The translations under genes were made by a program, and so were the position numbers. From Oceanidesulfovibrio marinus (GTDB lineage Bacteria > Desulfobacterota > Desulfovibrionia > Desulfovibrionales > Desulfovibrionaceae): a stretch of DNA of 64,000 bases. Numbering within the stretch: the stretch's first letter is position 1; every line of letters begins with the position of its first letter. The stretch spans positions 4,247,322 through 4,311,321 of the forward strand of contig NZ_CP039543.1 of the NCBI RefSeq assembly GCF_013085545.1. The letters run 5' to 3'. Below the pieces are notes generated by a model, which saw only the letters and a list, made by a program, of their open reading frames with translations, made no database searches and was not told the DNA's origin. Below are positions 45,067 through 55,769 of the stretch, one piece after another.

Positions 45067-45939
45067 TCACTCCTTGATATCTCCGTTGGCCACGAAAAGC
45101 TGCACCCCGGCCCGCTCCAGCTCCTCGATCAGGGGCGGCGGGGGCATGAAATCCGTGAACAGCGCGTCGATGTCCTCCAGCGTGCCCATGCGCACCATGG
45201 CGTTGCGGCCGAACTTGGAGTGGTCCGCCACCAGGAAGACCTTGCGCGCGTTTTCGATGATCGCCTGGGCCGCGCGGACCTCGCGGTAGTCGTAGTCCAG
45301 CAGAGTGCCGTCCAGGTCGATGCCGCTGATGCCGATGATGCCGTAGTCCACCTTGAACTGGCGGATGAAGTCGATGGCCGATTCGCCCACGATGCCGCAA
45401 TCCCTGTGGCGTACCACGCCGCCGGCCACCAGGGTTTCGATGTTTTCGTTGCCGCGCAGGATGGTGGCGACATTAAGGTTGTTGGTGATCACCCGCAGCC
45501 GCTCGTGGCCGTGCAGGGCCTTGGCTACCTCCTCTGTGGTGGTGCCGATGTTGATGAACAGGGAGGCGCGCGAGGGGATGTTTTCCGCCACCATCCGCGC
45601 GATGAGCCGCTTCTCGGCCTGGTAGAGGACCTGGCGGTTGGTGTAATCCACGTTCTCCGTGCTGTAGGTGACGCCCACGCCGCCGTGGTGGCGCTGGACC
45701 AGCCCCTTGGAGCAGAGGGTGTTGATGTCCCGGCGCACGGTCTGCGGGGTGACGTTGAAGGCCTCGGCCAGGTCCTGGACCGTGACGAAGCCGTGCTCCT
45801 GGACGATCTCGAACATCTGCTTGTGCCGCTTGACCACCGAGGCGTGCTTGACGTCCTGGTGGAAGGCCTGCTCGCGCTGGCTGGGGAGCCGGCAGGAGCT
45901 GCCTTCCACGAACGGGGGGAGTCTGAGCTGCTGAGACAT
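45067..45939 (-). CDS. glpR: DeoR-family glycerol-3-phosphate regulon repressor
   Basis: 290 residues. An N-terminal extension of about 35 residues precedes the DeoR helix-turn-helix (RHKQMFEIVQEHGFVTVQDLAEAFNVTPQTVRRDINTL, about 38-72). The sugar-phosphate-binding domain follows (FINIGTTTEEVAKAL, FGRNAMVRMG). It is expected to release DNA when glycerol-3-phosphate binds. It lies between the importer operon and the divergent catabolic genes, so it probably controls both. Confidence 0.88.
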   Translation of the reverse strand: MSQQLRLPPFVEGSSCRLPSQREQAFHQDVKHASVVKRHKQMFEIVQEHGFVTVQDLAEAFNVTPQTVRRDINTLCSKGLVQRHHGGVGVTYSTENVDYTNRQVLYQAEKRLIARMVAENIPSRASLFINIGTTTEEVAKALHGHERLRVITNNLNVATILRGNENIETLVAGGVVRHRDCGIVGESAIDFIRQFKVDYGIIGISGIDLDGTLLDYDYREVRAAQAIIENARKVFLVADHSKFGRNAMVRMGTLEDIDALFTDFMPPPPLIEELERAGVQLFVANGDIKE

Positions 45940-45972: not shown

Positions 45973-46113
45973 GAAAAATATCTGATTATGTTCTGCTGCG
46001 AAAAAAAGTAATGACGATAAACACGCCGTGTGCTAGATTTTAGCCCACGAATGACGCAAGCTTGTCATCTGTGCTTTGAAATTGTCATACTATCGGGCAA
46101 ATTAATTCACAAC

Positions 46114-46279: not shown

Positions 46280-47875
46280 GTGACAAAAGCCTTGAAGCCA
46301 GACGCTGCACGCGTGCTCATCATCGGCGGCGGGGTAACCGGCACCGGCGTGGCGCGCGACCTCGCCCTGCGCGGCATCCCCAGCCTGCTCGTGGAAAAGC
46401 GCGATCTGGCCGCAGGCGCCTCCGGCGGCAACCACGGCCTTCTACACAGCGGCGCTCGCTACGTGGGCTCCGACCCCGAAGCCGCCCGCGAGTGCATGGA
46501 GGAGTCCGCGCTGCTCAAGCGCCTCGCCCCCCACTGTATAGAGGATACCAAGGGCCTGTTCGTGGCCGTTCCCGGCGACGACGAGCACTACATCGCCGAG
46601 TTCCCGGACCTCTGCGCCAAGGTCGGCCTGCCGGCCAAAGAGCTCGACCCCAAGACCGCCATGGCCATGGAGCCGCACCTCGCCCGGGACGTCATCGCCG
46701 CCTACGAGGTCCGCGACGGCACCATCGACCCCTTCATGCTCTGCCTGGACAACATCAGCCACGCCTGCAGCCTGGGCGCGCAGATGCTCCGCAACACCAA
46801 GGTCACGGCCCTGAATGTGGAGGGCGGGGCCATCCGCACCGTCTCCCTGCACAACGAAAAAACGGGGGATGAGCTCGTCATTGAGCCCGAGCTGGTGATC
46901 AACGCCTCCGGCGCCTGGGCCGGCATCGTGGCCGATATGGCCGGCGCGCCGCTCTCCGTGGTTCACTCCCAGGGAACCCTGGTCATCACCCAGGACCGCC
47001 TTTCCGCCCGCGTGGTCAACAGGCTGCGCATGGCCTCGGACGCCGACATCCTCGTGCCCGGCGGCTCCGTCTCCATCCTCGGCACCACCTCCGTACGCAT
47101 CGACGATCCGGACGACTGCCGCCCCACCGTGGAGGAGGTGGACCGCATGCTGGACGACGCCATAGCCATGGTCCCCATTCTGGAGACCACCCGCTACATC
47201 CGCGCCTACGCCGGGGTCCGGCCCCTGGTGGCCGATACCAACGGCGACGCCAATGGCGACGGTGACTCCAACGGCGGCGACCGCAGCGTGAGCCGCGGCT
47301 ACACCCTGAAGGACCACGCTTCCCAGGGGGTGGCGAACTTCATCACCATCACCGGCGGCAAGCTGACCACCTTCCGCTACATGGCGGAAAAGGCCGGGGA
47401 CTTGGCCTGCCGCAAACTGAAAGTAGACGTGCCGTGCCGCACGCGGACCGAGCCTTTGCCGCCGTCCGACGCCGGCCGCTGGACCGACCCTAGGCTGGGC
47501 GCGCGCACCTGGGTGGACCGCGCCGAAGAGGGCGACGTGATCCTCTGCGAGTGCGAGATGGTCTCCGGCCGCGTGGTGGACTCCATGATGCAGGAGATGG
47601 CGCAGGACTCGAAGCTTTCCGCCCTGAGCGCCCTGAACATCCGCAGCCGGGTGGGCAAGGGCCCGTGCCAGGGCTGCTTCTGCGGGCCGCGCGTTACGGC
47701 CCATCTGTATGACGAGGGTTGGCTGGAAGCCGACCGCGGCCTGGACGAGCTCAAGGAGTTTGTGGGCCGCCGCTGGCGCGGCAAGGCGCCCATCCTCTGG
47801 GGCGTGCCCTTGCAGCAAGCCGAGCTCCAGGAGGCGCTGCTTTGCGGCATGCTGGAGCTGGAGCGCAAGCCGTAA
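46280..47875 (+). CDS. glpA: anaerobic glycerol-3-phosphate dehydrogenase subunit A
   Basis: 531 residues from GTG 46280, chosen for AGGAGGCGG directly upstream. FAD-binding VLIIGGGVTGTGVARDLALRG, then the substrate domain (GAYEVRDG-like DGTIDPFMLCLDNI; TGGKLTTFRYMAEKAGDLAC). The C-terminus has a BFD-like [2Fe-2S] set CEC...CQGCFC. It oxidises sn-glycerol-3-phosphate to dihydroxyacetone phosphate. Oddity: a 12-15 residue Asn/Gly/Asp-rich insertion (DTNGDANGDGDSNGGD) encoded by short tandem repeats at 47236-47283. glpB follows 62 nt later. Confidence 0.92.
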   Translation: MTKALKPDAARVLIIGGGVTGTGVARDLALRGIPSLLVEKRDLAAGASGGNHGLLHSGARYVGSDPEAARECMEESALLKRLAPHCIEDTKGLFVAVPGDDEHYIAEFPDLCAKVGLPAKELDPKTAMAMEPHLARDVIAAYEVRDGTIDPFMLCLDNISHACSLGAQMLRNTKVTALNVEGGAIRTVSLHNEKTGDELVIEPELVINASGAWAGIVADMAGAPLSVVHSQGTLVITQDRLSARVVNRLRMASDADILVPGGSVSILGTTSVRIDDPDDCRPTVEEVDRMLDDAIAMVPILETTRYIRAYAGVRPLVADTNGDANGDGDSNGGDRSVSRGYTLKDHASQGVANFITITGGKLTTFRYMAEKAGDLACRKLKVDVPCRTRTEPLPPSDAGRWTDPRLGARTWVDRAEEGDVILCECEMVSGRVVDSMMQEMAQDSKLSALSALNIRSRVGKGPCQGCFCGPRVTAHLYDEGWLEADRGLDELKEFVGRRWRGKAPILWGVPLQQAELQEALLCGMLELERKP

Positions 47876-47937
47876 GACTTGACGATACTGGCAGGGGCGA
47901 CGCGGAGTTCACGCGTATTACTGAAGGAGCAGCAGAC

Positions 47938-49308
47938 ATGCCGACCGACACTGCGAGTAAAGCGCACGCCATGGAACCGGATTGTTCCTGCGACCTCATG
48001 GTTGTAGGCGCGGGCATGGCCGGCATGGCCGCGGCGCTGTTCGCTTCCTCGCGCGGGCTCAGCGTTGCCCAGGCAGGCGCCCTGGGGGGCATCGATTTCA
48101 GCACCGGCATGCTCGATCTCCTGGGCATGCACCCTGTCGAAGAGCTGCACGCGGTGGACAACCCCTGGCAGGGGTTGGAGGCGTTGCGCCGCGACGAGCC
48201 GCACCATCCCTACGGCCTGGTGCCGGATGCGGACGTGCGCGCCGCTTTCGAGGATTTTACCGCGTTCCTGGCCGAGGCCGGCCTGCCGTACGACGGCTAC
48301 GCCGACCGCAACGCCCGCGTGCTCACCTCCCTGGGCACTGTGAAGCCCACGTACCGCGCGCCGTGCTCCATGTGGCCTGGGGTGCAGGCCATGGAGCGGA
48401 AGCTGCCGTGCCTGATCATCGATTTCATCGGGCTCAAGGGGTTCAGCGGCCGGCAGATCGTGGAGGTCCGCGGACCGGAGTGGCCCGGGCTGCGCAGCGT
48501 CCGCATTCCCTTCCCTGGCTGCGCCGGCGAGCTCTACCCGGAGCACCTGGCATGGTCGCTCACCGAGATGGACGTGGTGGACTGGCTGGCGGAGTCCGTG
48601 GCGGAGCACGTGCAGGATGCGCAGGCCGTGGGCTTTCCGGCCGTGCTCGGCCCGTACGCCGCGCCGGCGTCCACGGCGTCTTCCACAGCCAGCGTCGGAG
48701 CCGCCAGCTCCGGCCTGTACGACGTCATCGCCCGGCTCAGGGAACGGCTCGGCGTGGAGATCTTCGAGATTCCGACCATGCCGCCCTCCATTGCCGGGCT
48801 GCGGCTGCGCGCCGCTTTCGAGACTTTTCTGCCCGGCCGCGGCGTGCGCATCTACCCGCAAAAGCGTGTGGCCGAGTGGGAACGCACGGACAACGGCGGG
48901 TTCCGCTTCCACATTGCCGGCGCCGGGGAGGGCGACATCGAGGCCGTGGTGGAGGCGCGCGGCGCCATCCTTGCCGGCGGCCGGTTCTTCGGCAAGGGCC
49001 TGACGGCGGACAGGCACGCCGTGCACGAGCCGCTCTTCGGGCTGCCGGTCCTGCAGCCCAAGCACCGGGACGAGTGGCACCGCGAGGACTTCTTCGATGC
49101 CCGGGGACATCCGCTGAACAGGACCGGCGTGGAGGTGGACGCCCGGTTGCGGCCGCTCTCGGAGAACGGCCACCCAGCGTTTCCCAACCTTTTCGCGGCG
49201 GGTTCCATTCTGGCCAATCAGGACTGGATGCGCGCCAAGTGTGGCGCAGGCCTGGCAATCGCCACGGCGTATGCCGCGGTGCAGTCGTACCAGAACAGTC
49301 TGTCGTGA
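47938..49308 (+). CDS. glpB: anaerobic glycerol-3-phosphate dehydrogenase subunit B
   Basis: 456 residues from ATG 47938 (AAGGAGCAGCAGAC upstream). Flavin-binding DLMVVGAGMAGMAAALFASSRG at the N-terminus and ILAGGRFFGKGL near the C-terminus match GlpB, which relays electrons from GlpA. It is slightly longer than E. coli GlpB because of an Ala/Ser-rich loop (about residues 240-262). No GlpC follows; instead the next gene is a NarI/HdrC-like membrane protein. Confidence 0.87.
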   Translation: MPTDTASKAHAMEPDCSCDLMVVGAGMAGMAAALFASSRGLSVAQAGALGGIDFSTGMLDLLGMHPVEELHAVDNPWQGLEALRRDEPHHPYGLVPDADVRAAFEDFTAFLAEAGLPYDGYADRNARVLTSLGTVKPTYRAPCSMWPGVQAMERKLPCLIIDFIGLKGFSGRQIVEVRGPEWPGLRSVRIPFPGCAGELYPEHLAWSLTEMDVVDWLAESVAEHVQDAQAVGFPAVLGPYAAPASTASSTASVGAASSGLYDVIARLRERLGVEIFEIPTMPPSIAGLRLRAAFETFLPGRGVRIYPQKRVAEWERTDNGGFRFHIAGAGEGDIEAVVEARGAILAGGRFFGKGLTADRHAVHEPLFGLPVLQPKHRDEWHREDFFDARGHPLNRTGVEVDARLRPLSENGHPAFPNLFAAGSILANQDWMRAKCGAGLAIATAYAAVQSYQNSLS

Positions 49309-49482
49309 GAGGAAGCCGGCAGGTGATGTCGGTACCTGACGTACGAGGACTTTTCGGCCCGGCAGGTGATGCCACTGCCTGCTGCGGGAGAACTTTTTCG
49401 ACAGCTTCATAGGCCAGCCGGCGAGGGCTGCCGGCGCGTGGCGTGAACCAATCAAGAAGGTGCGGCACCGGAAGCAGTGTCC

Positions 49483-51258
49483 ATGGATTTTCTCACAGGA
49501 GGTCTCCTTATTTCCCTGGCCGCGTGCCTGGCCGGATTCGCCTGGCGGATTCGGCGCAGTCGCGGTGGGGTACGAATCAGCAGTGAGGCCCACGAGCCCC
49601 CGCATCGAGCACCCTGCCCAAAGAAGGCCGGTGAACGTGGCGGCGCAGGATTGGGCGTCCTCCGCTACCTCAAGGCTTTCTTGCTCGACGTGCTTTTCCA
49701 GGCGCACCTGGTACGGGCCAGTGTGTCGCGCTGGACCATGCACTTCCTCCTGGCCGCGGGGTTCGTGGGCCTTCTGCTAATGCACGCCATGGACGGCGTG
49801 TTCTCCCGCGCCGTTCTGCCCATGTACGAGCCCACGCTGGACCCGTACCAGTGGCTGCGCAACCTGTTCGGCCTCATGGTGCTGGCGGGCGTGGCCCTGG
49901 CCGTGTACCGCCGGCTCACAATCACCGGGCTCAAGCGCACCACCCGCAGGGACGACTGGTTCGCCCTGGCCATCATCGCAGCCATCGTCCTCTCCGGCTT
50001 TGTTCTGGAAAGCGCCAAGATCACCTCCCAGAGCGAGTTCGACAGCATGGTGGCCGACTACTTCGTGAGCGACGACCCGGCCGAGATAGCCGGCCTGCAA
50101 ATGGTCTGGGCCAACGAGTACGGCGTGGTCTTCACCCACCCGGCGCCCGAGCCCATGGACATGACTCCGGACGAGCTCCTGGCCCTGGGCCGGGAGGTCA
50201 ACGACTTCGCCTGCACTTCCTGCCACTCGGACACGGCCTCGGCCTTTGTCTCCTACCCGCTCTCCAGGGCGCTCAAGCCGGCGGCGCCGGTGTTGGGCTC
50301 GGCCGGCGGGGTGTCCACATTATGGTATGTCCACGTGCTGCTCTGCTTCCTGGGCATCGTCTACCTGCCATTCGGCAAGATGGCGCACGTCTTCCTCACG
50401 CCGCTCAATCTGCTGGTTCAACCCACGCGGCCCAGGCCGGAGCGCGGCGCACAGCCAGACGCCTGCGGCGGCGCTCCCGGCACCGCCACAACGCTTCGCC
50501 GCACCATCGGCATGGAAGCCTGCATGCACTGCGGCATGTGCAGCGAGCATTGCAGCGTGGCCGCGTCTTACGCCGTGCTCGGCACCGCGGAGATCCTGCC
50601 TTCGGAGAAGCTGCGCGGCCTCAGGCACAAGGGCGCGGGCGAGCTGGACCCTGCCGAGGCTTTCGCATTCGCCGAAGGCAGCTTTGTCTGCACGGAGTGC
50701 CACCGCTGCACGGACGTCTGCCCGGCGCGCATCGATTTGCAGGAGTTGTGGATATCCTCCAAGCGGACGCTGATGGCCGAGGAGGCCGGCGGCGCCGGCG
50801 TGCGCGGCGAACCCCATCGCCAGATGACGCGTTTTACGGCCGGTCAGTGGGCCGAGCGGTTCTCACAAGGACTGCTGCACAAGCCTTCGCAGGAAGAGAC
50901 CGAGCGGCCCGTGGTGCTGGCCGATCGTCCGCAGACCTTCTGGGCCTGCGTGCAGTGCACCACCTGCACTAATGTCTGTCCGGTGGTGGCGGCCGCCACA
51001 GATCCGGTGCAGGAGCTGGATCTGACCCCGCAGCAGATCATGAACATGCTGCGCATGGGCCTGCGGGACCACGTGCTGGGCGCGCGCATGGTCTGGAGCT
51101 GCGTGACCTGCTACAAGTGCCAGGAGCATTGCCCCCAGGGCGTGCGTGTGGCCGACGTGCTCTTCGAGCTGCGCAACATCGCCTCGGCCAGGCTGCGCCA
51201 CGCCGCGCTGCACAATGATGCGGATAGGGACACCCATCATCAGGGAGGCGCCGCGTGA
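49483..51258 (+). CDS. NarI-like cytochrome b fused to four-cluster HdrC-like Fe-S protein, probable GlpC replacement
   Basis: 591 residues. TM1 (about 3-22) is followed by a basic cytosolic stretch, then TM2-TM5 with His-bearing helices (RWTMHFLLAAGFVGLLLMHAM; WYVHVLLCFLGIVYLPFGKMAH) of the NarI/DsrM type, which bind b hemes. The loop between TM4 and TM5 carries C244TSCH248, a c-type heme motif, and by the positive-inside rule this loop is periplasmic. The C-terminal cytoplasmic half has four CxxCxxCxxxC motifs (CMHCGMCSEHC, CTECHRCTDVC, CVQCTTCTNVC, CVTCYKCQEHC), double the HdrC number. Its stop overlaps the next gene. It probably passes GlpAB electrons to menaquinone. Confidence 0.8.
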   Translation: MDFLTGGLLISLAACLAGFAWRIRRSRGGVRISSEAHEPPHRAPCPKKAGERGGAGLGVLRYLKAFLLDVLFQAHLVRASVSRWTMHFLLAAGFVGLLLMHAMDGVFSRAVLPMYEPTLDPYQWLRNLFGLMVLAGVALAVYRRLTITGLKRTTRRDDWFALAIIAAIVLSGFVLESAKITSQSEFDSMVADYFVSDDPAEIAGLQMVWANEYGVVFTHPAPEPMDMTPDELLALGREVNDFACTSCHSDTASAFVSYPLSRALKPAAPVLGSAGGVSTLWYVHVLLCFLGIVYLPFGKMAHVFLTPLNLLVQPTRPRPERGAQPDACGGAPGTATTLRRTIGMEACMHCGMCSEHCSVAASYAVLGTAEILPSEKLRGLRHKGAGELDPAEAFAFAEGSFVCTECHRCTDVCPARIDLQELWISSKRTLMAEEAGGAGVRGEPHRQMTRFTAGQWAERFSQGLLHKPSQEETERPVVLADRPQTFWACVQCTTCTNVCPVVAAATDPVQELDLTPQQIMNMLRMGLRDHVLGARMVWSCVTCYKCQEHCPQGVRVADVLFELRNIASARLRHAALHNDADRDTHHQGGAA

Positions 51259-52124
51259 AATACGTGTGGTTTCCGGGCTGCAAGATCCCGTACCACCAGC
51301 CGCAGTACGGCGAGGCGTCCCGCGCCGTGTGCGCGGCCCTGGGCGTGGAGCTCGTGGACCTGGAGTTGGGCTGCTGCGGCTATCCGGTGCGGCACCAGAG
51401 CTTCGAGGCCTCGGTGCTCTCCTCGGCGCGCAACCTGGCCCTGGCCGCAGCGGAAGGCCTGCCCATCCTCACGCCGTGCAAGTGCTGCTACGGCAACCTG
51501 CGGCACGCCATCTACTGGATGGAGCGCAACGAAACACTGCAGAAACGGATACGGCGGCTGCTCGCCCAGGAGGGGCTGCACCTGCCCACACGGCCGGTCG
51601 ACTGGCCCGAGCCCGTGCATCTGCTCACTGCCCTGGACCGCGACGTGGGCGCACCCGCCATCGCCGTCGCGGTCACGAATCCGCTGACCGATATCAAGAT
51701 AGCGGCGCATTACGGCTGCCACGCGCTGCGGCCCGGCAACGTGACGCGCTTCGACAACCCGCTCCAGCCCACACTTTTCGAGCGTCTCGTGGAGGCGGCC
51801 GGGGCCACGGCCGTGTACTGGCCCATGCGGCTGGAGTGCTGCGGCAACCCGCTTTTCGGCAAGGACGACCGCATGGCCCTCAAGCTCGCGCGCAAGAAGC
51901 TCGTGGACGCCATGACCGCCGGGGCCCAGGTGCTCGCCACCGCCTGCACCTACTGCCAGCTCCAGTTCGATACGCACCGCAGCCTGCTGCATGAGCTCAT
52001 GCCGCTGGAAGGGGCGCCGCCGTCCGTGCTCTACCCGCAGCTCCTGGGCCTGGCCCTGGGCCTGCCGCCCGCCACCCTGGGCCTGCACCGCAACGTGACG
52101 GACTGGGCACGGATATTGGGGTAG
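51255..52124 (+). CDS. HdrB-like CCG-domain protein
   Basis: 289 residues with two CCG domains: GCKIP...LGCCGYP...TPCKCC and YGCHALRP...LECCGNP...ACTYC. These bind the non-cubane [4Fe-4S] clusters of HdrB or a degenerate version. It overlaps the preceding gene by 4 bases. Together they look like an HdrC/HdrB (DsrMK, GlpC, TmcB-like) module attached to GlpAB. Whether it has its own disulfide-reducing activity or only transfers electrons cannot be told from sequence. Confidence 0.83.
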   Translation: MKYVWFPGCKIPYHQPQYGEASRAVCAALGVELVDLELGCCGYPVRHQSFEASVLSSARNLALAAAEGLPILTPCKCCYGNLRHAIYWMERNETLQKRIRRLLAQEGLHLPTRPVDWPEPVHLLTALDRDVGAPAIAVAVTNPLTDIKIAAHYGCHALRPGNVTRFDNPLQPTLFERLVEAAGATAVYWPMRLECCGNPLFGKDDRMALKLARKKLVDAMTAGAQVLATACTYCQLQFDTHRSLLHELMPLEGAPPSVLYPQLLGLALGLPPATLGLHRNVTDWARILG

Positions 52125-52160
52125 GGAAGGCCTCCGGTGGACGCTGTCCCCCGGTTCCCC

Positions 52161-52224
52161 TGCCGGGGACCAGTGGTCCCCGGACCCCTATTATAGGGTG
52201 GGAGCCCGAGGGCAACGCCCTCGG
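52161..52224 (+). repeat. modular palindromic repeat, copy R4 (A-C, hairpin B deleted)
   Basis: A: CCGGGGACC/GGTCCCCGG (52163-52183). C: CCGAGGGC/GCCCTCGG (52206-52224), with the ACCCCTATTATAGGGT spacer kept and hairpin B cleanly missing. It lies between the HdrB-like gene and glpK. Confidence 0.85.
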
Positions 52225-52328: not shown

Positions 52329-53840
52329 ATGGCCAAGTATATCGGAGCGGTGGATCAGGGAACCACGAGCAGCCGGTTCATCATATTCGACGAGCGCGGC
52401 CGCATTGTGACGCTGGACCAGAAGGAGCACCGGCAGTTTTTCCCGCAACCGGGCTGGGTGGAGCACGACGCCCTGGAGATCTGGGAGAACACGCAGGAGG
52501 TGATCCGCGGCGCCCTGGCCAAGGCCGGGCTCAGGGGCGGCGATCTGGCGGCCATCGGCATCACGAACCAGCGCGAGACACTGCTGGTGTGGGACAGGCG
52601 CACGGGCAAGCCGTACTACAACGCCATTGTCTGGCAGTGCACGCGCTCCCACGAGATCTGCAAGGAGCTCATTGCAGAGGGCGGGCAGGACCGGTTCCGC
52701 GACAAGACCGGTCTGCCCGTGGCCACGTACTTCAGCGGGCCCAAGATCAAGTGGGTGCTGGACAACGTGGACGGCGCGCGCAAGGCCGTGGAGGACGGCT
52801 CGGCCATCATCGGCACCATGGAGACGTGGATCATCTGGCAGCTCACGGGCGGGACCATGGGCGGAGCGCATGTGACCGATGTGACCAACGCCAGCCGCAC
52901 CATGCTGATGAACCTGCATACTTTGGATTGGGACGATGAGATTTTGTCCATCCTGAATATTCCGCGCCAGGGGTTGCCGCGCATCGTGCCGTCCAGCGAT
53001 CCGAACTCCTGGGGACCCACGGACGAGGACGGCCCGCTCCGGGCGCGCGTTCCGGTGTGCGGGGCCTTGGGCGACCAGCAGGCCGCCCTGGTGGGCCAGG
53101 CGTGCTTCAGCAAGGGCGAGGCCAAGAACACGTACGGCACGGGCTGCTTTCTGCTGCTGAACACGGGCGAGACGCCGGTGCCTTCCACGCACGGGCTGGT
53201 CACCACGCTGGCCTACCAGATGGGCACGGACAAGCCGGTCTACTGTTTGGAGGGCTCCATCGCCATTGCCGGCGCGTTGGTACAGTGGGTGCGCGACAAC
53301 CTGGGCCTCATCCAGAGCGCGCCGGAGATCGAGGAGCTGGCCGCCCAGGTGGACGACAACGGCGGCGTGTACGTGGTGCCGGCGTTTCAGGGACTTTTCG
53401 CCCCGTACTGGCGGCCGGACGCTCGCGGCGTGATCTGCGGGCTGACGCGGTACGTGACCAAGAACCACATCGCCCGCGCCGTGCTGGAGGCCAACGCCTA
53501 CCAGACCAAGGACATAGTGGAGGCCATGAACAAGGACTCGGGCGTGGCGCTCAAGCGGCTCAAGGTGGACGGCGGCATGGTGGCCAACGACCTGCTCATG
53601 CAGTTCCAGGCCGACGTGCTCGACGTGCCCGTGATCCGGCCCAAGGTGGCGGAAACCACCTGCCTGGGCGCGGCGTACGCGGCCGGGTTGGCTGTGGGCT
53701 TCTGGGACAGCTGCGACGAGCTGCGCAAGAACTGGGAAGAGGACAAGGCCTGGGAGTCGCAGATGAGCGAGGCGGACCGCGCCAAGGGGTATGCCATGTG
53801 GGGGAAAGCTGTCGAGCGTACTCTCAACTGGCTCGACTGA
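52329..53840 (+). CDS. glpK: glycerol kinase
   Basis: 503 residues from ATG 52329 (AAGGAGAG upstream). FGGY-family kinase: [18 protein letters not shown] phosphate-binding loop, [10 protein letters not shown], and C-terminal [21 protein letters not shown]. The length is standard. It makes sn-glycerol-3-phosphate from glycerol imported by GlpSTPQUV. It is separated from the upstream Fe-S genes by repeat R4 and from glpD by a hairpin element and R5. Confidence 0.95.
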
Positions 53841-54074: not shown

Positions 54075-54141
54075 TGAACCTAGAATAGGGTCAAGGGAGC
54101 AATGCTCCCTTGCAGGGAGTTCGAGGGACAGCGTCCCTCGA
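54075..54141 (+). repeat. modular palindromic repeat, copy R5 (B-C)
   Basis: B: CAAGGGAGC/GCTCCCTTG (54092-54112). C: TCGAGGGAC/GTCCCTCGA (54121-54141), both with 3-nt loops. It lies just upstream of glpD; a longer glpD frame would run through it, which argues for the downstream start. Confidence 0.83.
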
Positions 54142-54209
54142 CAGCATATCGCCCTGAGCTGTTTGCCAGGCAATATAAGGGCAAGACGTATGAGTACTGG
54201 AGGATTCAA

Positions 54210-55769
54210 ATGAACAGGGACGCCATGCTCCACGCCGTGCGGCAGGAGCTGGGATATTGGGACATTATCATTATCGGCGGCGGGGCCACGGGTTTGGGCG
54301 TGGCTGTGGACGCGGCCTCGCGCGGGTACGCCACGCTGCTTCTGGAACAGCACGACTTTGCCAAGGGCACGTCCAGCCGCTCCACCAAACTGGTGCACGG
54401 CGGCGTGCGCTATCTACGCCAGGGCAACATCTCCCTGGTGCTGGAGGCGCTCAACGAGCGCGGCCTGATGCGCCAGAACGCGCCGCATCTCGTTACCCAC
54501 CAGGCCTTTTTGGTGCCCAACTACGACTGGTGGGACGGCCCGTTCTACGGCGCGGGCCTGCGCGTGTACGACATGCTTGCCGGCAAGCTCGGCCTGGGAC
54601 CGTCCAAGCGCGTATCCAAGGACGAGACCATGCGCCGCATCCCCACGCTGCGGGACACGGGCCTCAAGGGCGGGGTAGTCTACTACGACGGCCAGTTCGA
54701 CGATTCGCGCCTGGCCGTGAACCTGGCCCAGACCGCGGCCGAGAACGGCGGCGTGCTCCTCAACTACATGCAGGTCACCGGGCTGATGAAGTCCGGCGAC
54801 ATGGTCAGCGGCGTCACGGCTGTGGATCAGGAGAGCGGCGAGGAGCTGCACATCCACGGCCGGGTGGTGGTCAACGCCACGGGCGTCTTCACGGACAGCG
54901 TGCTGCAGATGGACGACCCGAAGGCGCAGCAGATCATCCGGCCCAGCCAGGGCGTGCACATCATTCTGGACAAGGAGTTCCTGCCCGGCAACACGGCCAT
55001 CATGGTGCCGCAGACCGAGGACGGCCGCGTGCTCTTTGCCGTGCCGTGGCACGACAAGGCCGTGGTGGGCACCACCGACACCCCGGTGGACGCCCCCAGC
55101 CTGGAGCCCAGGCCGTTGGAGGAGGAGATCGAGTTCATCCTGCACCACGCGGCCATGTACATGAGCAAGGTCCCCACCCGCGCGGACGTGCGGAGCGTGT
55201 TCGCCGGGCTGCGGCCCCTGGTGGAGCCGGGCGGCGGCAAAACCACCTCGTCCATTGCGCGCGACCACTTCCTGGTCGTGTCGCCCTCCGGCCTGGTGAC
55301 CATCACCGGCGGCAAGTGGACCACCTATCGCAAGATGGCGCAGGAGGCCGTGGACAACGCGGTGCTTATCGCCGGTCTGGAGGAAAAGTCCTGCGTGACC
55401 AAGCACCTGCGCATTCACGGCTGGCTGAAGCACGTGGACCGGAAGGACCCGCTGCACGTGTACGGCTCGGACGAGCCCTTTATCCGGCACCTTGTGGAGG
55501 ACAAGCCCGAGCTGGGCGAGCTGCTGCACGAGAGCCTGCCGTACATCAAGGCCGAGGTGGTCTGGGCCGTGGAGAACGAGATGGCCCGGACTGTGGAGGA
55601 CGTGCTCGGCCGGCGCACCCGCGCGCTGCTGCTGGACGCCCGGGCGAGCATCGAGTGCGCGCCGGAGACGGCGCGGATCATGGCCGAGGCCTTGGGCAAG
55701 GACGATGCCTGGGCCCAGGACCAGGTGCGCCAGTATACCGAGCTGGCACAGGGCTATGTGATCGACTGA
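54210..55769 (+). CDS. glpD: FAD-dependent glycerol-3-phosphate dehydrogenase, single-subunit type
   Basis: 519 residues from ATG 54210, preceded by TGGAGGATTCAA. N-terminal IIIIGGGATGLGVAVDAASRG, the GTSSRSTKLVHGGVRYL signature, and the substrate segment TITGGKWTTYRKMAQEAVDNA. It is a membrane-peripheral enzyme giving electrons directly to quinone. It is a second route beside GlpAB for the same reaction. No clear operon partner; a terminator follows at 55809. Confidence 0.93.
   Translation: MNRDAMLHAVRQELGYWDIIIIGGGATGLGVAVDAASRGYATLLLEQHDFAKGTSSRSTKLVHGGVRYLRQGNISLVLEALNERGLMRQNAPHLVTHQAFLVPNYDWWDGPFYGAGLRVYDMLAGKLGLGPSKRVSKDETMRRIPTLRDTGLKGGVVYYDGQFDDSRLAVNLAQTAAENGGVLLNYMQVTGLMKSGDMVSGVTAVDQESGEELHIHGRVVVNATGVFTDSVLQMDDPKAQQIIRPSQGVHIILDKEFLPGNTAIMVPQTEDGRVLFAVPWHDKAVVGTTDTPVDAPSLEPRPLEEEIEFILHHAAMYMSKVPTRADVRSVFAGLRPLVEPGGGKTTSSIARDHFLVVSPSGLVTITGGKWTTYRKMAQEAVDNAVLIAGLEEKSCVTKHLRIHGWLKHVDRKDPLHVYGSDEPFIRHLVEDKPELGELLHESLPYIKAEVVWAVENEMARTVEDVLGRRTRALLLDARASIECAPETARIMAEALGKDDAWAQDQVRQYTELAQGYVID

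Follow-up and report, generated by a model that had tools for sequence, protein, structure and literature searches.

Which protein takes the electrons from an anaerobic glycerol 3-phosphate (G3P) dehydrogenase when the place behind glpA and glpB is held by something other than glpC? The question is raised by a locus in the window (the whole stretch of 64,000 nucleotides that was analysed), where two genes, designated here as P3 and P4, stand between glpB and glpK.

Gene organization of the locus

The genome of the window is one contig of 4.76 Mb, and dsrA was recognized on it over cut-off. From position 46280, the window reads from left to right glpA, glpB, P3, P4, and glpK (Table 1). GlpA reached 557.5 bits with the NCBIfam equivalog TIGR03377 (cut-off 552.8), and GlpB 553.5 bits with the equivalog NF003725 (cut-off 345). 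The GTG start of glpA was picked by eye from the ribosome-binding site, and its ORF is open already from 46253. A BFD-like CxC..CxxC cluster motif at the C-terminus of GlpA was seen by eye only, in a part without Pfam match. The position of the divergent GlpR-like regulator is common to most relatives. Two sigma-70-like matches were found in the scanned region, with 0.8 expected. Beyond the regulator, in the opposite direction, there are two UgpC-like ABC ATPase frames below the family cut-off, and three more frames without NCBIfam match at 1e-30; judged by its position, this gene set may be a glycerol importer. A glpD-like gene lies just behind glpK at 54102-55769 (297 bits, cut-off 360) and is possibly a second G3P dehydrogenase of the same genome, which could oxidise G3P by itself. 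Between P4 and glpK, a G+C-rich inverted-repeat-like stretch was noticed by eye at 52139-52190.

Table 1. Features of the glp locus in the window, and loci of the split module in relatives
Feature	Position	Strand	Basis or remark
DeoR/GlpR-like regulator, divergent	45067..45939	-	NF008154, 315 bits, just under cut-off 331
Sigma-70-like promoter match upstream of glpA	46062..46091	+	weak
glpA, anaerobic G3P dehydrogenase subunit A	46280..47875	+	TIGR03377, NF008313 above cut-off; GTG start
glpB	47938..49308	+	NF003725, TIGR03378 above cut-off; ATG start
P3, membrane protein, 591 aa	49483..51258	+	helices, CxxCH, Fe-S motifs; ATG start
Predicted periplasmic loop of P3, residues 182-274	50026..50304	+	heme-c motif and invariant Met189
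P4, HdrB-like, 289 aa	51255..52124	+	two complete CCG motifs, PF02754 in two stretches; GTG start
glpK, glycerol kinase	52329..53840	+	TIGR01311, 741 bits, cut-off 590; order kept in relatives
Split module	L165:2230-6944
Split module	L166:2436-7141
Split module	L167:4724-9459
Split module	L168:2043-6760

Domains of P3 and P4 and the search for GlpC

The sequence-only reading had described P3 as a protein of 591 residues with NarI-like helices, a CxxCH, and four CxxCxxCxxxC motifs, and Pfam and motif scans gave the same picture. Nitrate_red_gam (38.1 bits, cut-off 22.9) and Fer4_8 (72.2 bits, cut-off 27) were matched, and the Fe-S motifs start at residues 347, 403, 489, and 540 in the 591-residue numbering, which is two lower than a numbering from GTG. 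The heme-c motif at 244-248 reads CTSCH. Another CxxCH, CTECH at 403-407, belongs to the second Fe-S motif, and most relatives are without it at that place. The overlap of P3 with an HdrB-like two-CCG protein was also found again, as the reading frames of P3 and P4 share 4 bases and P4 matches CCG in two stretches (89 bits, cut-off 20.6). All ten CCG cysteines of P4 are kept in 22/22 glp-linked rows, L020 left out.

Canonical GlpC unites two [4Fe-4S] motifs with two CCG domains, which are divided here between the final part of P3 and P4. In the alignments, the third and fourth Fe-S motifs of P3 correspond to the beginning of both the GlpC and the HdrC model, and P4 corresponds to HdrB and to a section of the GlpC model. 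The helices and heme motifs of P3 are extra to GlpC, however, and both proteins are far below the GlpC models: P3 has 44.2 bits with TIGR03379 (cut-off 279.9) and 56.2 with NF008369 (cut-off 278), and P4 has 40.8 with the latter. In comparison, the HdrC model gave 73 bits on P3 (GlpC models 56 and 44) and the HdrB model 168 on P4 (GlpC 41), and the arm is therefore Hdr-like rather than a split GlpC. P4 is HdrB-like only, with 168.2 of the 345 bits set as cut-off for HdrB (CoB-CoM) TIGR03288.

P3 was rejected by score as DsrM (29.2 of 300 bits) and as QmoC (77.2 of 300 bits). Of the DsrMK/Hdr-style module proposed earlier, the Hdr likeness was retained and the kinship to DsrMK was dropped; HdrF, EtfD/EMO, and the HotSeep-1 complex are nearest.

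No frame above cut-off was found when the genome was searched for GlpC. The two best matches reached 140 and 127 bits against a cut-off of 279.9. Each scores best with LdhH, although below the LdhH cut-off, and each comes after a GlcD-like frame, which suggests that they belong to other dehydrogenases. A canonical GlpC elsewhere in the genome, the objection that the sequence-only reading had itself raised, was rejected on these grounds.

Predicted hemes, topology, and fold of P3

Five helices are predicted in P3, at about residues 3-21, 81-106, 124-147, 160-178, and 277-295. In an alignment of 64 P3 rows, net charge is positive in the three stretches predicted as inside (62/63, 62/64, and 64/64 rows) and negative in the two predicted as outside (54/64 and 63/64), the last of which holds the CxxCH. 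These charges fit five helices with the CxxCH loop outside, in agreement with the periplasmic position predicted before. At 54-72, a less pronounced hydrophobic peak (1.37) makes a further helix conceivable; we take it as surface-bound and without crossing, because its flanks (24-60 positive, 103-122 negative) allow only one crossing.

The residues H101, M189, C244, C247, H248, H284, and H302 are invariant in 64/64 rows, and H87 in 63/64; the row without H87 is L020, whose contig begins nearby. Two His in helix 2 and two others, 18 apart, in or just after helix 5 resemble the diheme-b pattern of NarI. P3 is accordingly patterned in its sequence as a binder of two hemes b, which are predicted at H87/H302 and H101/H284, this pairing being the probable one.

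The CxxCH occupies one alignment column in all 64 rows, whose pairwise identity averages 42%, and it arose in 0.07% of shuffles of each loop's own letters; a chance motif was rejected by the comparison of this rate with 64/64 rows. Other cysteines are missing from the loop in 62/64 rows. Met189 is a candidate second ligand of the heme, since of all Met, His, and Lys residues in the loop of the window's P3, it and His248 alone are invariant. As in a c-type cytochrome, the CxxCH on the predicted periplasmic side is accompanied by cytochrome c maturation genes in the genome, with three matches to the assembly family over cut-off. The cytochrome c3 family has 9 matches there, four of them within one 653-residue frame.

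The AlphaFold model of P3 was computed from a 15-row alignment and has middling confidence (mean pLDDT 68.3), with mostly 65-94 in the first 310 residues except 21-60, and mostly under 60 at about 311-450. Its best Foldseek match is EtfD (PDB 9ojn) with E 9e-5, so P3 is predicted to have the fold of the EtfD/EMO membrane arm; VIA-align with 9ojn gave Z 16.9 over 249 residues at 3.5 A, and the profile match has E 4.5e-7. The match with NarI (Z 11.7 over 178 residues) is in the range where helical proteins can match by chance and is backed by the Pfam match. HdrC matched residues 475-572 of P3 with Z 8.3 over 90 residues.

Distribution, neighbours, and phylogeny

The same arrangement beside glpAB, which the sequence-only reading suggested to seek in other genomes, is frequent. 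Among 14 P3 loci of the named genomes, 11 have glpA-glpB-P3-P4; the contigs of L018 and L020 start within the operon, the remainder of which agrees, and L025 has P3-P4 without glpAB. Culturable relatives that carry the operon include strains of Pseudodesulfovibrio, Halodesulfovibrio, and Desulfomicrobium. A full-length or nearly full-length P3 is coded in 9 of 59 related genomes (own included), with a copy beside glpB in 9/9; two of the nine are the same contigs as, or near-copies of, the named loci L032 and L017, and the counts overlap to that extent. G001 and G037 code for a second, diverged copy. That of G001, a genome of the window's own genus, is L046. P3-P4 copies near AprA-like flavoprotein and HdrA-like genes were observed in L046:1792-9274 and in L125.

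In the phylum (395 genomes, in each of which no more than 3 or 4 candidates were scored), P3 was found in 54 genomes as 65 matching stretches (E 1e-60), GlpA in 73 (1e-80), and GlpC-like proteins in 59 (1e-60). The GlpC count is too low, as G065, G294, and G431 are without listed match yet have a GlpC-like frame beside glpAB. GlpC accompanies GlpA in 51/73 genomes and P3 in 13/73, and 41/54 P3 genomes have no GlpA at the threshold. With P3 mostly occurring without GlpA, P3-P4 is to be seen as a more general module, on which GlpAB draws over part of its range. P3-type matches of G129, G427, G104, G192, G091, G135, G197, and G356 contain in-frame stops (TGA, TAG, or TAA), which may stand for selenocysteine, frame ends, or errors.

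The 64 rows of the alignment and tree (the window and 63 others) come from 68; the duplicate loci L068, L080, L085, L032, and L118 were dropped, the broken copy L169 and the split copies L165-L168 stayed outside, and phylum matches were taken in part. Within 3.5 kb on either strand, glp genes adjoin 23 of these P3 and HdrA 18, and neither was seen at 23, a group labelled 'alone' which includes unknown neighbours because some fetched stretches were short. The 23 glp-linked P3 were classified together in one clade (SH-aLRT 99, quick tree with no bootstrap). L046 and L047 have long branches, and in L122 the second Fe-S motif is short of one cysteine. P3 linked to HdrA and solitary P3 keep the CxxCH just as invariably. 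A restriction of this CxxCH to the glycerol branch was rejected, and being family-wide it need not serve glycerol oxidation.

In the tree of GlpA, a lineage of 28 rows (99) includes all 18 P3-P4-linked GlpA and 0 of 10 GlpC-linked ones. Nine further loci of this lineage have neither GlpC nor P3-P4 adjoining, and one has HdrA and an HdrD-like protein; a strict one-to-one link between GlpA lineage and P3-P4 was rejected for the nine. As seven of these nine genomes are without P3 at E 1e-60, GlpAB of this lineage can do without P3-P4. The contig of L152, one of the nine, ends 42 bases after glpB. In L146-L151, L154, and L163, glpAB of the same lineage stands with neither GlpC nor P3-P4 next to it; glpK comes directly after in L147-L149, and in L154 the place after glpB is taken by a frame of 407 residues that has two Fe-S motifs. 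In G191, where P3-P4 and glpAB are not linked, P3 (L108) nevertheless branches as the sister of the glp clade, and GlpA (L147) falls among the P3-P4-linked GlpA.

A split module is coded in G138, G102, G197, and G356. Its order is a six-CxxCH frame, a membrane protein of 716 residues with seven CxxCH, a separate four-cluster Fe-S protein, and the HdrB-like protein corresponding to P4 (Table 1); in L165, HdrA comes after it. Two of the 716-residue proteins were scanned with Pfam and revealed stretches of cytochrome b561, class III cytochrome c, and Nitrate_red_gam. This multiheme variant is a different branch, and by analogy it supports the single CxxCH of P3 as a putative outward electron port. 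Two other arrangements were observed. L145:5879-15612 (G140) has glpA-glpB, an HdrA-like frame, a frame with CCG, Fer4, and FlpD stretches, and then glpK, so that GlpAB adjoins a helix-free Hdr arm. Near 1589663 and 2731882 of G000:C1 (L010, L011), two HdrC/HdrB-like gene pairs scored equally and may have arisen by duplication.

Comparison with known systems

HdrF was named in the genome paper of Desulfobacterium autotrophicum HRM2 (2009, PMC2702500), where, in the text available, it stands beside glpAB and etfBA and passage of GlpAB electrons through HdrF was already proposed as possible. HdrF1/F1' and HdrF2 of HRM2 combine, like P3-P4, a membrane region with HdrC- and HdrB-like domains, are encoded by one gene or by two, and adjoin glpAB. 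Compared by description, P3-P4 fit this type, with helices and HdrC-/HdrB-like domains beside a dehydrogenase; dicarboxylate transporter genes, however, adjoin HdrF in HRM2, and no c heme is named for HdrF in the text of PMC2702500 that was covered.

EtfD is described in the accessible part of PMC13083937 as conducting electrons of ETF to menaquinone via Fe-S clusters and one heme b, and its structure is known. The protein of Mycobacterium smegmatis (9ojn) resembles P3-P4 in heme b, a cubane pair, two CCG-type clusters, and the path from a flavoprotein to menaquinone. It differs as one chain with one heme b, two cubanes, and ETF as partner, and the same part of the paper names no c heme. No etf genes were found as neighbours of P3-P4, which are glpAB, glpK, and the GlpR-like gene. 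EMO (ETF:methylmenaquinone oxidoreductase) of Syntrophus is, in the visible text of PMC8805022, a diheme/Fe-S protein that reduces methylmenaquinone and is used in reverse electron transfer by a reverse redox loop, with hemes at -80 and -220 mV. By description, it shares two hemes b and Fe-S clusters with P3, but its partner is ETF and a c heme is not named in that text. For HotSeep-1, a heme-c/CCG/HdrA complex with proposed flow from cytochrome c to DsrC was reported in 2023 (PMC10553843, as far as accessible). It is similar by description to the P3-P4 family in heme c and the CCG domain and is HdrA-linked as in many relatives, but glpAB are not mentioned in the accessible text.

DsrMK, QmoC, HdrDE, and NarI share the NarI-like b-type arm and/or HdrC/HdrB-like clusters with P3-P4, but have other partners. 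Titles and visible abstracts of the open-licence literature name no c heme in a GlpAB-linked complex, which is not to be read as its absence from print. The present analysis adds three points: the GlpAB-linked form has a predicted c heme that is invariant, it makes up one clade, and along the GlpA tree it and GlpC replace each other.

Proposed electron path and alternatives

The products of glpA-glpB-P3-P4 probably form one G3P dehydrogenase complex, in which GlpC is replaced by an HdrF/EtfD-type membrane arm with a predicted periplasmic c heme. Electrons of G3P, at about -190 mV, would enter the flavins of GlpA/GlpB and pass to the two CCG clusters of P4, from there to the C-terminal HdrC-like [4Fe-4S] pair of P3 and to its middle [4Fe-4S] pair. 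The cytoplasm-side heme b (H87/H302) and the periplasm-side heme b (H101/H284) would follow, and from the latter, menaquinone and/or the c heme at C244-H248 could be reduced. We think that menaquinone is the main acceptor, with the c heme as another outlet, on the periplasmic side, to c-type cytochromes.

The closest competitor, clearly less probable than this complex with two outlets, is an arm that serves the quinone alone. P3-P4 would then deliver to menaquinone like EtfD and EMO, and the c heme would be structural, tune a heme b, or be left over from a cytochrome-using ancestor. The fold match of P3 to EtfD, described as ETF-to-menaquinone wire in the accessible part of PMC13083937, and the methylmenaquinone reductase activity given for EMO in that of PMC8805022 agree with such a role; a leftover would nevertheless be expected to decay, and CxxCH and Met189 have persisted in every row at 42% identity, in a loop nearly always free of other cysteines. 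Four relatives even have the seven-CxxCH membrane protein in this place, together with the six-CxxCH frame.

Somewhat more doubtful is the opposite extreme, in which GlpAB-P3-P4 would be a transmembrane G3P:cytochrome c oxidoreductase bypassing menaquinone. Electrons would enter inside, cross via the two hemes b helped by the membrane potential, and go from the c heme to c3-type cytochromes and further to a periplasmic hydrogenase or formate dehydrogenase. Such an export straight to the cytochromes of the periplasm fits the layout, and the results are equally compatible with the menaquinone-first reading.

It is improbable that P3-P4 work in reverse or elsewhere and are merely co-regulated with glpAB, electrons of periplasmic cytochromes or menaquinol then being led to a cytoplasmic disulfide such as DsrC. 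The complete CCG cysteines of P4, the flow from cytochrome c to DsrC proposed for the HotSeep-1 complex (accessible text of PMC10553843), and HdrA or no recognised partner near P3 in 41/64 rows would suit this role, but one P3 clade is tied to glpAB, beside glpK and the GlpR-like regulator, in a genome where no GlpC was found above cut-off. Hardly credible is a P3 with hemes b only, for although a motif alone is no proof of heme, the invariance of the CxxCH, its predicted periplasmic side, the cytochrome c assembly genes of the genome, and the multiheme versions of the module all speak for a heme site.

With the GlpAB-P3-P4 complex as preferred here, the glycerol catabolism of sulfate reducers would be tied to a modular membrane wire, which seems to be plugged into other cytoplasmic oxidoreductases in relatives. 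How electrons of middling potential are moved outward in sulfate reducers and syntrophs is, in our view, an open question of bioenergetics, and the one CxxCH is a concrete place where cytoplasmic electrons could reach the periplasmic cytochrome pool. If direct transfer to cytochrome c is true, a single complex would accomplish reverse electron transfer during glycerol oxidation, in syntrophy or in hydrogen cycling, and relatives would use this wire with HdrA-type or multiheme partners.
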